From positions 2,418,001-2,482,000 of the forward strand of contig NZ_CP029192.1 in the NCBI RefSeq assembly GCF_008642315.1: 64,000 bases of DNA, read 5' to 3'. This DNA is from Streptomyces venezuelae (GTDB taxonomy: Bacteria; Actinomycetota; Actinomycetes; Streptomycetales; Streptomycetaceae). The notes under the pieces are model-generated. The model did not search any database, was not told the origin of the DNA, and saw only the letters and a list, made by a program, of their open reading frames with translations. Made by a program: the position numbers and the translations under genes. This document shows, one piece after another, positions 14,108 to 17,197 of this stretch (its first letter is position 1; each line of letters starts with the position of its first letter).

Positions 14108-14321
14108 CGGACGGGCCCGTCGGCCTGCGATGTGACGATCGGACAGAGGGGTGGCGCCGTGGGTCCCGTCGGGGCCGCCGTCGCTTGACGCAAGCACCGG
14201 CAATAGGTTGCATACGTTCTGTGATCGTGCACCGGGCTCCAACTGCCAGTTCCTGTACGTACGTCCAGAGCATCCGGGCAGCCCGGACCCTCGGAGCCCG
14301 CCGGGCCGGAGGATGTGCGCC

Positions 14322-15977
14322 GTGGACCCGGTGATCGTCGTCGGCGCGGGCCCCGTCGGACTCGCGCTCGCACTCGCCCTCGCCCGCCACTCGGTGCCCA
14401 CCGTCGTCCTCGACGAGGGACCCGGCAAGGACGAACAGCGACCCGCGCGGACCGTCGTCCTCCGGGACGACACCGCGGCGTTCGCCGAGCGCCTCGCGGG
14501 TCACTCGTTCGGCGACGCGGAAACAGGCGCACGGTGGACGGGCTGGCGCTCGGTGCGGCGCAAGCAACTGATGCGGGAGCTCGACTTCGACGAGGCGACC
14601 CCGGCGCCCCTGCACCTGCCGCAGCACGAGCTGACCGCCGCGCTGCGCGAGGCCATCGCCGACGAGCGGCTGGTCAAGGTCGCGGTGGACAGCAAACTCG
14701 ACTCCCTGGAACAGGACGCCGGCGGCGTGACCGCCCACACCCGCGGCCCCAAGGGCACCTGGTGGCGCGGCAGTTACCTCGTGGGCTGCGACGGCTCGCG
14801 CTCCACGGTGCGCAAACTCCTCGACGTCCGCTTCCCGGGACGTACGGCCGTCGAACGACACGCCGTGGCCGCACTGCGCACGGAACTTCCCTGGCCCGGT
14901 CAGGCGTTGTTGCATCGGATGCCTCCGTGGCGCCACGGGGGCGCCGAGGTGGTGGGGCGGCCGCTGGCCGGCGGAGTGTGGCGGCTCGACTGGCTGCTGC
15001 CGCCGCGCGGCGACCTGGTGACGCCCGACGCCCTCGTCGTCCGCATCCGGGAGACCCTCGCGGGCTGGTGCGGGGGCTCCACACCGCCGTACGAACTCCT
15101 CGACACGGGCGTGCACACCGTCCACCACCGACTCGCCCGGCGGTGGCGGGTCGGCCGCGCCTTCCTCGCCGGTGACGCCGCGCACCTGCTCGGCGCGCTC
15201 GGCACCCAGGGGCTCGACGAAGGACTGCGGGACGCCGACAACCTGGCGTGGAAGCTGGGGCTCGCCTGGCACCACGGCGCGCGCGATGCGCTGCTCGACA
15301 GCTATCAGGTCGAGCGCCGGGCAGGTGTGGCCGCGCGGCTGCGCGCCGCCGACCAGTCGCTGCCCGCGCTGCGCGGCAGCAAGAACCTGCGCTCGTACGT
15401 CCCCGGAACCGCCCGCGGGCACGACACGCTCCTCACGGACGGTCACGTGGGGCGCGGCCCCCTGGGCGCCCCCTCGTCGTACGCCGATTCCCCGCTGGCA
15501 CCCGCTCCGTCGGAGTCCGTCACCGCGGTCGAGACGGAGCCGGGCGCTCCGGTCGCCGATGTACGGGTGACGGCGCCGGACGGGTCCTTCGTTCAGCTGC
15601 GCGACCGCCTCGGCCTCGGGCACCTGATCGTCGTCCTCGTCGCGCCGGGCACCATGGTGTGGGAGCGGCGGCACTGGGTGACCGCCGGGATCATGCCGCG
15701 GCTCGCCGCCGCGGTCACGGCCCTGCCGCACGCGGCCGAGCTGCTCGTCGCGGAGAGCTACCCCGGTGCCGCGGCCCACTCGGTCCTGCTCGTGCGCCCC
15801 GACGGCCACCTGATCACCGCACTGTCCGGGGTACGTCCGGCCGAGCTGTACGCGGCGGCCGAGACGGCACTGGGAGGTCCCGCTCCGACAGGGCGCGGGG
15901 ACGGCGCGGGGCAGTCCGACAGCACGGTCACGGGCGAGCAGGAGAGCTCGGCGGGGGCGGCACGGCATTCGGGATGA
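14322..15977 (+). CDS. FAD-dependent monooxygenase (aromatic hydroxylase type)
   Basis: A 551-residue flavoprotein of the PheA/TfdB/RdmE hydroxylase type. Start GTG 14322 (VDPVIVVGAGPVGLALAL) lies 9 nt after GGAGG; ATG 14313 is an in-frame alternative. The N-terminal GxGxxG FAD motif, the mid DG-type motif (LVGCDGSRSTVRK) and the GD motif (FLAGDAAHLLGALGTQGLDEGLRDADNLAWKL) are all visible. A thioredoxin-like C-terminal domain follows (residues about 400-530). Substrate is unknown; it is a stand-alone gene rather than part of a pathway cluster. Confidence 0.88.
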   Translation: MDPVIVVGAGPVGLALALALARHSVPTVVLDEGPGKDEQRPARTVVLRDDTAAFAERLAGHSFGDAETGARWTGWRSVRRKQLMRELDFDEATPAPLHLPQHELTAALREAIADERLVKVAVDSKLDSLEQDAGGVTAHTRGPKGTWWRGSYLVGCDGSRSTVRKLLDVRFPGRTAVERHAVAALRTELPWPGQALLHRMPPWRHGGAEVVGRPLAGGVWRLDWLLPPRGDLVTPDALVVRIRETLAGWCGGSTPPYELLDTGVHTVHHRLARRWRVGRAFLAGDAAHLLGALGTQGLDEGLRDADNLAWKLGLAWHHGARDALLDSYQVERRAGVAARLRAADQSLPALRGSKNLRSYVPGTARGHDTLLTDGHVGRGPLGAPSSYADSPLAPAPSESVTAVETEPGAPVADVRVTAPDGSFVQLRDRLGLGHLIVVLVAPGTMVWERRHWVTAGIMPRLAAAVTALPHAAELLVAESYPGAAAHSVLLVRPDGHLITALSGVRPAELYAAAETALGGPAPTGRGDGAGQSDSTVTGEQESSAGAARHSG

Positions 15978-16037
15978 AGGCGGTGTTCACTCTGAACGGC
16001 GTACGTGGACGGCCCCTGTTCGCATGTTGAGCCGGGG

Positions 16038-16073
16038 TTGACCGGTCTGCACCCCCGTGGTCTACTCCGGATC
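16038..16073 (+). promoter_or_regulatory. Promoter for a leaderless transcript (leader peptide-CDO-rhodanese)
   Basis: TTGACC (16038-16043), a 17-bp spacer and TCTACT (16061-16066) are followed seven bases later by GTG 16074. This is the geometry of a primary sigma-factor promoter whose transcript begins at the GTG of the leader peptide. Confidence 0.65.
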
Positions 16074-16160
16074 GTGACCGACACCGATGTGCACCTGTGG
16101 CGGAGGGTCCATATGGACCTCGTCCGCTACGCAGGCTGCGTGTGTCACCTGTCCTGCTGA
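16074..16160 (+). CDS. Cys-rich leader peptide (putative cysteine attenuator)
   Basis: A 28-codon open frame from GTG 16074 to TGA 16158-16160; the peptide contains LWRRVHMDLVRYAGCVCHLSC in its last part, with cysteines at codons 22, 24 and 28. Inner starts are GTG 16089 and ATG 16113. It resembles the short Cys-rich leader peptides described in actinobacteria (Ms5788A type in mycobacteria), which are often leaderless and lower expression of sulfur genes when cysteine is plentiful. It lies 81 nt upstream of the cysteine dioxygenase-like gene. A hairpin (CGCGCAC/GTGCGCG, 16177-16183 and 16207-16213) fills the spacer before the downstream ribosome-binding site. Function is inferred from sequence and context. 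Confidence 0.75.
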   Translation: MTDTDVHLWRRVHMDLVRYAGCVCHLSC

Positions 16161-16176
16161 ATTCGCACTCCTCCCT

Positions 16177-16213
16177 CGCGCACCGAGCACCTCTCCGGGG
16201 TGTGTCGTGCGCG
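16177..16213 (+). promoter_or_regulatory. Hairpin between leader peptide and cysteine dioxygenase-like gene
   Basis: A 7-bp perfect outer stem (16177-16183 / 16207-16213) encloses a weaker GCACC/GGTGT stem. It is positioned between the leader stop codon and the AGGA ribosome-binding site, as expected for coupling leader translation to downstream expression. Confidence 0.5.
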
Positions 16214-16241
16214 CTTTCCGCGAACCTCCAGGACGGTATCC

Positions 16242-16781
16242 GTGTCTGTTGCCCCTTCCTCCGCCGCGCCCGCGCCGACGCGCTCCTCGGCACCCACCGC
16301 CGCCGAACTCCTCGCCTTCGTCCGTCGCACCGCGGCGGACTCCGAACTCATCGCCTCCTTGCCCCTCGACCCCGAGGGCCGTACCTGGGTACGGCTGGAG
16401 GGGCCCGGCGGCAGCGAGGCCTGGCTGATCGGCTGGCCGCCCGGCACCGGCACCGGCTGGCACGACCACGCGGAATCAGTCGGCGCCTTCCTCACCGCGG
16501 CGGGCACCCTCAAGGAGAACTCCCTGGCCGCGCGCCTGCCCACCGATGGGTGGAAGACCCTGGAGCTCTCCGACGACGTGGACCGCGAACGGGAGTTGAC
16601 GCCCGGCGAGGGCCGCGCCTTCGGCCGGAACCACGTGCACGAGGTGCTCAACGAGTCGACGACCGAGCATGCCGTCTCCGTGCACGCGTACTACCCGCCG
16701 CTGCCACGGATCCGCCGCTACAGCCGTACCGGTGACGTGCTCCGCCTGGAGTCAGTCGAGCGCCCTGAGGACTGGCAGTGA
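16242..16781 (+). CDS. Cysteine dioxygenase type I-like cupin protein
   Basis: Probable non-haem iron dioxygenase oxidising cysteine (or another thiol) to the sulfinate. GTG 16242 (VSVAPSSAAPAP) follows AGGACG; 179 residues. The cupin core has the metal-binding HDH (H74, H76) and NHVHEV (H131, H133) segments, and a conserved AYYPPLPRIRRY segment contributes a Tyr. The N-terminal ~20 residues are low complexity. Its end overlaps the rhodanese start (GTGA), so the two are co-translated. The Cys-rich leader upstream supports a role in cysteine catabolism or sulfur balance. Substrate specificity cannot be read from sequence. Confidence 0.85.
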   Translation: MSVAPSSAAPAPTRSSAPTAAELLAFVRRTAADSELIASLPLDPEGRTWVRLEGPGGSEAWLIGWPPGTGTGWHDHAESVGAFLTAAGTLKENSLAARLPTDGWKTLELSDDVDRERELTPGEGRAFGRNHVHEVLNESTTEHAVSVHAYYPPLPRIRRYSRTGDVLRLESVERPEDWQ

Positions 16782-17197
16782 GCGACGAACAGGCAGTGGG
16801 CGACGACCGGCCGGTGGGCATCGACGAGTTGCTGGAGCGCGTACGGCTCGACCTCGACCGGCTCTCTCCGGAGGAGGCGTACCAAACCGCCGAGGCCGGT
16901 GGCCTGCTGGTCGACATCCGCTATGCGGCGCTGCGGGAGCGGGACGGGCTGATCCCCGGCGCACTCGTCGTCGAGCGCAATGAGTTGGAGTGGCGCCTCG
17001 ATCCCCAGGGCAGTCATCGTGCTCCGGAGGCCACGGGCCACGATCTGCCCGTCGTCGTCATCTGCAACGAGGGATACGCGTCCAGCCTCGCGGCCGTCTC
17101 CTTGCGGCAGTTGGGGCTCCGCCACGCCACCGACCTCACGGGAGGCTTCCAGGCGTGGCGGGCGGCGGGGCTGCCCGTGGTGACCACCGAGTCATGA
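16778..17197 (+). CDS. Rhodanese-domain sulfurtransferase
   Basis: A 139-residue single-domain rhodanese. GTG 16778 overlaps the stop of the preceding gene. The active-site loop VICNEGYASS gives the persulfide-forming C96; LVDIRYA and DLTGGFQAWRAAGLPV are typical rhodanese end motifs. The extended N-terminus (about 25 residues) is acidic. The pairing with a cysteine dioxygenase-like enzyme and a Cys leader suggests handling of sulfane sulfur from cysteine, by analogy with persulfide dioxygenase-rhodanese pairs. Confidence 0.9.
   Translation: MSDEQAVGDDRPVGIDELLERVRLDLDRLSPEEAYQTAEAGGLLVDIRYAALRERDGLIPGALVVERNELEWRLDPQGSHRAPEATGHDLPVVVICNEGYASSLAAVSLRQLGLRHATDLTGGFQAWRAAGLPVVTTES

Follow-up and report, generated by a model that had tools for sequence, protein, structure and literature searches.

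A 28-codon open reading frame that precedes a CDO-fold thiol dioxygenase gene (hereafter CDO) in Streptomyces venezuelae is a real, conserved and most likely functional leader. Its coding end contains an anti-Shine–Dalgarno (anti-SD) sequence complementary to the CDO Shine–Dalgarno (SD) region, an arrangement that is new here. Modelling of ribosomes on the leader leads us to think it probable that the leader is a cysteine-responsive translational attenuator that would switch CDO on when Cys-tRNA is short. Positions throughout are those of the window, the whole 64,000-nt stretch of contig NZ_CP029192.1 that was analysed, in which the relevant features are as follows.

16038–16066, + strand: promoter-like elements, TTGACC (16038–16043), 17 nt and TCTACT (16061–16066).
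16074–16160, + strand: leader open reading frame, 28 codons encoding VTDTDVHLWRRVHMDLVRYAGCVCHLSC, with a GTG start and a TGA stop at 16158–16160.
16098–16129, + strand: hairpin PA, over codons 9–19, with the perfect dyad GGTCCATATGGACC at 16106–16119.
16137–16139, + strand: Cys22 codon, TGC; the SD is predicted to be closed with a ribosome here.
16143–16145, + strand: Cys24 codon, TGT, the family-conserved Cys; the SD is predicted to be open with a ribosome here.
16149–16156, + strand: anti-SD CTGTCCTG, within leader codons 26–28, pairing with 16229–16236.
16155–16157, + strand: Cys28 codon, TGC; Cys in 114/127 loci.
16162–16166, + strand: TTCGC after the leader stop, pairing with GCGAA at 16220–16224.
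16220–16224, + strand: GCGAA, 3′ arm of an inner stem in the window's own minimum-energy fold.
16229–16236, + strand: CDO SD region CAGGACGG, located at 127/127 loci.
16242–16781, + strand: CDO-fold thiol dioxygenase gene, GTG start, Pfam CDO_I 165 bits.
16778–17197, + strand: rhodanese-domain gene, Pfam Rhodanese 50 bits, overlapping CDO by 4 nt.

The original prediction had described a TTGACC-17-TCTACT promoter, a GTG at 16074 and a 28-codon frame with Cys at codons 22, 24 and 28, and direct reading of the sequence finds every one of these coordinates right, with 7 nt between TCTACT and the leader GTG. As had been proposed, a Cys-codon leader, here seen to be conserved, and a promoter of the leaderless type lie ahead of a CDO-fold/rhodanese pair, and folding predicts a hairpin structure between leader and CDO, where the original prediction had noted one. 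From the promoter spacing we infer leaderless initiation close to or at GTG 16074. Against such a start, TCTACT agrees poorly with the −10 consensus for Streptomyces, TAnnnT, given in the available part of PMC8079986. A strict consensus scan demanding A at position 2 returned no sigma-70 promoter in 15950–16300. Upstream, a FAD-dependent monooxygenase-type gene (14151–15977, Pfam FAD_binding_3, start codon uncertain) ends 96 nt before the leader. The leader peptide scores 38.9 bits against the NCBIfam model NF042934 ("putative leader peptide", cis_reg_atten), exceeding the curated cut-off of 27, and its peptide family is therefore already known. Against NF042933, the Ms5788A Cys-rich leader, it scores 17.1 bits, below the curated cut-off of 45, and the single Rfam match, on the opposite strand, was at chance level, with none to the leader.

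A CDO homologue (E value 1e-30 or better) was found for 131 of the 150 Streptomyces genomes searched, S. venezuelae among them, and we read 130 loci, leaving out a match at a contig end (G130). The leader is found at 127 of these; the remaining three are a locus whose CDO match has just 24 nt of sequence before it (L106), one in which the CDO match begins at residue 37 and the upstream sequence differs (L146) and a CDO homologue of 50% identity (L147). The length from W9 to the stop codon is identical in 127/127 leaders, and most codons are near-invariant at the nucleotide level (V12 is GTC in 127/127, S27 is TCC in 123/127). Comparison of the Cys codons across Streptomyces, proposed earlier as a check, shows that Cys22 is kept in 126/127 leaders, 120 of these 126 using TGC, Cys24 in 127/127, always as TGT, and Cys28 in 114/127. 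The start codon occupies the aligned place in 119/127 leaders and lies 3 nt upstream in 5/127. Among these 124 loci, the other 3 not being assessed, TTGA occurs at −40 to −31 in every case, and the hexamer at −13 to −8 is TGTACT in 76, TCTACT in 19, TTCACT in 16 and another sequence in 13. A rhodanese match follows in 125 of the 127 leader loci, with a gap of at most 60 nt in 108. A degenerate 57-nt pattern matches at least 120 stretches in the genome collection; the 80 matches listed comprise 78 from Streptomyces, one from Kitasatospora and one from an "Actinobacteria bacterium".

At its end the leader carries CCGTCCTG, which reads CTGTCCTG in the window, and this stretch can base-pair with the CDO SD region CAGGACGG. 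The search for the SD region tolerated up to two mismatches, and most of the listed variants match it exactly. In the window the two form seven Watson–Crick pairs and one G-U pair, and at least 7 of 8 pairs are retained in 115/127 loci. Across the 127 Streptomyces loci, 94.7% of cells in this helix are paired, and the helix is present in the consensus fold. Both arms hardly vary within the genus, so covariation is weak and a permutation test nearly uninformative (0.947 observed against a permuted mean of 0.939, with 1 of 500 permutations reaching the observed value). Hairpin PA is supported by its register: over its 13 pairs and 98 distinct sequences, 96.9% of cells hold standard pairs, against 34.5–53.8% when the helix is slid by 1–3 nt, and 88.5% are paired in the 20 other-genus loci whose leader is equally long. 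This support is for pairing rather than proven covariation, because its 3 double changes and 9 pair types do not exceed those of all slid versions (0–3 and 3–9, respectively).

Conservation of the CDO leader purely at the peptide level was set aside, as variation within PA is confined to its loop, its bulge and positions where pairing is kept; peptide and RNA causes are not fully separated, because three of these positions are also third codon positions. The dyad at 16106–16119 was also considered as a DNA operator and judged the less likely reading, since the stem outruns the dyad and the pattern at pair 27–54 (G-C or G-U in Streptomyces, C-G in 12 of 20 other-genus loci) favours RNA. Against the RNA reading, pair 25–56 is lost in 16 of these 20 loci and pair 26–55 in 7, and the dyad may yet be a protein site. 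Three further candidate helices lie nearby. The TTCGC/GCGAA stem occurs in the window's minimum-energy fold and is absent from the 127-sequence consensus fold; TTCGC lies within 6 nt of the leader stop in 72/127 loci, and CGCGAA or GCGAAC is at the anchored place in 103/127, the anchor itself having sought such a motif. A competing helix at Cys22–Cys24, CGGGC/GCCCG, has its pairs in 111–123 of 127 loci, with an apparent A-T replacing a G-C pair in the window; the consensus fold pairs this stretch otherwise, and we do not rely on it. Each pair of a 5′ helix, CGACAC/GUGUCG, is present in 106–127 of 127 loci, and this helix may partly account for the use of UGU as the Cys24 codon of the CDO leader.

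To model the effect of a translating ribosome, we placed each codon in turn in the A-site, folded only the RNA beyond the ribosome's downstream edge and calculated the energy needed to open AGGA in the SD. Median costs across the 127 loci are 8.0 kcal/mol with no ribosome, 8.7–11.4 kcal/mol at codons 14–21 and 8.5 kcal/mol at codon 22, and then fall to 4.6 kcal/mol at codon 23, 3.4 kcal/mol at codon 24 and 3.2 kcal/mol at codon 28. The window alone behaves alike, at 7.9 kcal/mol with no ribosome and 8.8, 4.6, 3.3 and 2.6 kcal/mol at codons 22, 23, 24 and 28. Among 22 distinct sequences, codon 24 stays at or below 5.5 kcal/mol for all ribosome edges from +11 to +18, and codon 22 is at or above 8.3 kcal/mol up to edge +16, reaching 5.5 kcal/mol at +17 and 4.6 kcal/mol at +18. 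The switch at CDO is not a product of the method, because the same computation gives flat curves, with no SD switch, for family members that precede nirA (24 of 30 loci computed), cysO (26 of 30) and cysA (22 of 30); loci were omitted for an uncertain gene start, an unparsed leader, a distance above 200 nt or a maximum of 26 loci.

A candidate leader also precedes 29 of 32 CDO loci read from other genera of the family, one of them (L217) doubtful. Read by eye, 29/29 of these leaders have Cys at the place of Cys24, Cys22 is lost in 6, Cys28 is retained in few and often replaced by Arg, and the tail after Cys24 varies between genera. Where sister genera have the SD GGGACGG, the opposing leader base is C in three loci (L204, L206 and L213) and T, forming a G-U pair, in two (L199 and L203); a mismatch stands opposite the changed SD base in L202. 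Across 17 loci outside the genus, moving the ribosome from codon −7 to codon −5, counted from the stop, lowers the opening cost by 2.8–4.2 kcal/mol in 6 of 7 loci with a CRPS tail, L213 being flat, and by less than 1 kcal/mol in 9/9 loci with other tails; in L192, no SD was found. Leaders at L190–L198 and similar non-Streptomyces loci end in CTAAR; an inverted, CG-rich sequence surrounds their stop codon, their SD is of another, CAGGGTGG-like type, and CCACC/GGTGG pairing is possible downstream.

These results suggest a mechanism in which the mRNA would begin at or near GTG 16074 and ribosomes would translate the 28-codon leader, as its conservation implies. With the leader end free of ribosomes, codons 26–28 are predicted to pair with the CDO SD and keep CDO translation low. 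A ribosome at Cys24 (UGU), Cys28 or the stop codon is predicted to cover the anti-SD and free the SD, allowing CDO and the overlapping rhodanese gene to be translated. Shortage of Cys-tRNA would lengthen the waits and raise expression, according to a toy traffic model with a 10-codon footprint in which the SD counts as open once an A-site has reached codon 23 or a later one. Without drop-off and at the higher initiation rate, the open fraction of this model rises from 0.27 with fast to 0.67 with very slow Cys decoding at Cys22, Cys24 and Cys28 together, and from 0.27 to 0.99 for Cys24 and Cys28, and falls from 0.27 to 0.03 for Cys22 alone; with drop-off at all three Cys codons it goes from 0.26 to 0.59 and back to 0.26. 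These values give direction only, because the rates are assumed.

The original prediction suggested that control could be inverted, with cysteine inducing the operon. Such a switch would have a Cys shortage hold the leading ribosome at Cys22, leaving the anti-SD free and CDO off, and ample cysteine bring ribosomes to the stop codon, keeping the SD open and CDO on. It would suit a catabolic gene, and it gains from the predicted boundary between closed and open states just past Cys22, from the fall in open fraction when Cys22 acts alone and from the lowering that drop-off causes at extreme shortage. We nonetheless judge it unlikely, as the Cys conserved in the family is Cys24 (UGU in 127/127), stalls at Cys24 and Cys28 are predicted to open the SD, and all three Cys codons together, without drop-off, raise the open fraction on shortage. 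The ordinary sign, on at low cysteine, is on this modelling more likely than the inverted one, which would need dominance of Cys22 or heavy drop-off.

The idea of inversion had started from a role for the operon in cysteine catabolism, a premise that is weak and unproven. The nearest solved structures to the CDO-fold protein are of ergothioneine dioxygenase, and the substrate may therefore not be cysteine; for the same reason we no longer take the CDO fold as a sign of cysteine as the substrate. If the substrate is cysteine, making a cysteine-oxidising enzyme at cysteine scarcity would be odd. The S. venezuelae genome holds a second CDO-fold gene, 39% identical (L002, G000:C1:5424587-5424982, minus strand).

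The kinship to leaders of sulfur operons that had been suggested is supported at the level of the peptide family, which includes leaders before sulfur genes in the same genome. NF042934 has eight matches there at an E value of 0.01 or better, six of them over the cut-off, and the genes that follow the eight are those for CDO, cysO-cysM, sulfite reductase, thiosulfate sulfurtransferase, a sulfatase-like protein, an ABC permease, a symporter and a flavin-reductase-like protein; all downstream names except CDO come from reading translated neighbourhoods rather than from a family search. The family-conserved Cys is encoded by TGT in 8/8 of these leaders and in 127/127 CDO, 30/30 nirA, 29/29 cysO (from 30 loci, in one of which no leader was parsed) and 30/30 cysA leaders. 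It is also TGT in 28/28 parsed further loci of the genus (of 29) and in 27/28 parsed loci of the class (of 29), the exception (L321) having Cys-Cys at this place, coded TGT TGC, with the second picked by the script. There is partial overlap among these sets (loci L003–L010 in the S. venezuelae genome, L148–L176, L222–L311 for nirA, cysO and cysA, and L312–L340). Background usage is the reverse: in 20 open reading frames of the window, TGT accounts for 8 of 84 Cys codons, and TGC is about ten times commoner (76:8). Within the same peptides, the Cys of a DLC motif is TGC over TGT by 33:2, against TGT by 35:0 for the Cys seven codons further on (one third of the counts), and an optional Cys at codon 5 of the CDO leader is TGT in 34/38.

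The rare UGU codon is read by wobble, and it seems to be selected for itself, because flanking codons differ between operons. A tentative reading, to which we would give somewhat less than an even chance as a whole, is that the family senses cysteine through a single codon selected for the way it is decoded, namely the conserved UGU at a fixed place after a VDLxR peptide, that the peptide may help pausing and that the anti-SD in the CDO leader would make UGU the first Cys codon to open the SD. A nearly invariant UGU makes synonymous-codon choice in attenuators a testable question. Leaders of the same family also seem to work in different ways within a single genome, given SD masking at CDO and none found at nirA, cysO or cysA.

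Motif conservation bears on another possibility, arrest by the nascent peptide in the manner of TnaC, a point of comparison for peptide-dependent arrest by a free ligand; here free cysteine or another thiol would stall the ribosome near the end of the peptide and open the SD. VDLxR is kept in nirA, cysO and cysA leaders despite differing codons, and the Val codon is free in cysA leaders (GTA 16, GTG 7, GTC 6, GTT 1), so the peptide itself seems to be selected. The same Val is, however, GTC in 30/30 nirA and 29/29 cysO leaders, much of the conservation of the CDO leader also fits RNA pairing, and its tail after Cys24 differs from genus to genus; we regard arrest as distinctly unlikely. Less probable still is Rho-dependent control, in which leader translation would govern the exposure of a C-rich stretch to Rho and SD pairing would be secondary. 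The 50–60 nt past the leader stop are C-rich (C/G 0.47/0.25 at CDO, 0.48/0.23 at nirA, 0.48/0.32 at cysO and 0.44/0.29 at cysA), a consensus scan of the window found no intrinsic-terminator-like site in 15950–16300, and the available part of PMC1262725 proposes Rho for mycobacterial cys leaders. The precise, conserved SD helix weighs against Rho at CDO; the nirA, cysO and cysA leaders may work through Rho.

The attenuator that we favour resembles the mycobacterial polycysteine leaderless short open reading frames of Canestrari et al. (2020), in which RNA structure is reported to sequester the downstream SD until relieved by a ribosome on Cys codons. As far as the available accounts go, the two share a short, leaderless-type Cys-codon frame before sulfur genes and, at CDO by computation, an SD sequestered and then freed by a ribosome on Cys codons. 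They differ in that the CDO leader has C-V-C-x3-C rather than a contiguous Cys run near the stop and targets a thiol dioxygenase. The available parts of the mycobacterial literature describe Cys-rich leaderless frames (PMC4633059, PMC9094748, PMC9031893, PMC13236596), and ribosome speed on the Cys codons of a polycysteine frame is said there to control downstream translation (PMC9031893, PMC13236596, PMC9094748). PMC1262725, in its available part, reports cys leaders without terminators in mycobacteria and a few other species. Unlike a classical transcription attenuator, CDO has no intrinsic terminator with a T-run in the stretch scanned (15950–16300), a point in favour of translational attenuation. 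The leader uORFC-8-2 before cysS in Rhodobacterales, as the available part of PMC8632094 presents it, is likewise a conserved frame with Cys codons inside RNA structure, but has an intrinsic terminator, tandem Cys codons and dominant UGC in place of predicted SD sequestration and an invariant UGU. PMC8079986 also covers leader peptides of S. lividans; by eye, none of the eight in the table of its available part resembles the NF042934 family. The CDO leader is a member of that family by score and differs from its nirA, cysO and cysA relatives, which lack an SD switch, in encoding the anti-SD itself. The CDO leader, the SD switch and the UGU rule are undescribed in the titles and abstract openings of the literature matches listed. 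A leader that databases call "putative" gains a concrete, testable mechanism, a cysteine-gated SD switch for a thiol dioxygenase–rhodanese operon across the genus. Separately, a second cysO-like family of about 60% identity occurs in many genomes, and many of its matches contain one in-frame TGA, which may reflect alignments that overrun a short gene.
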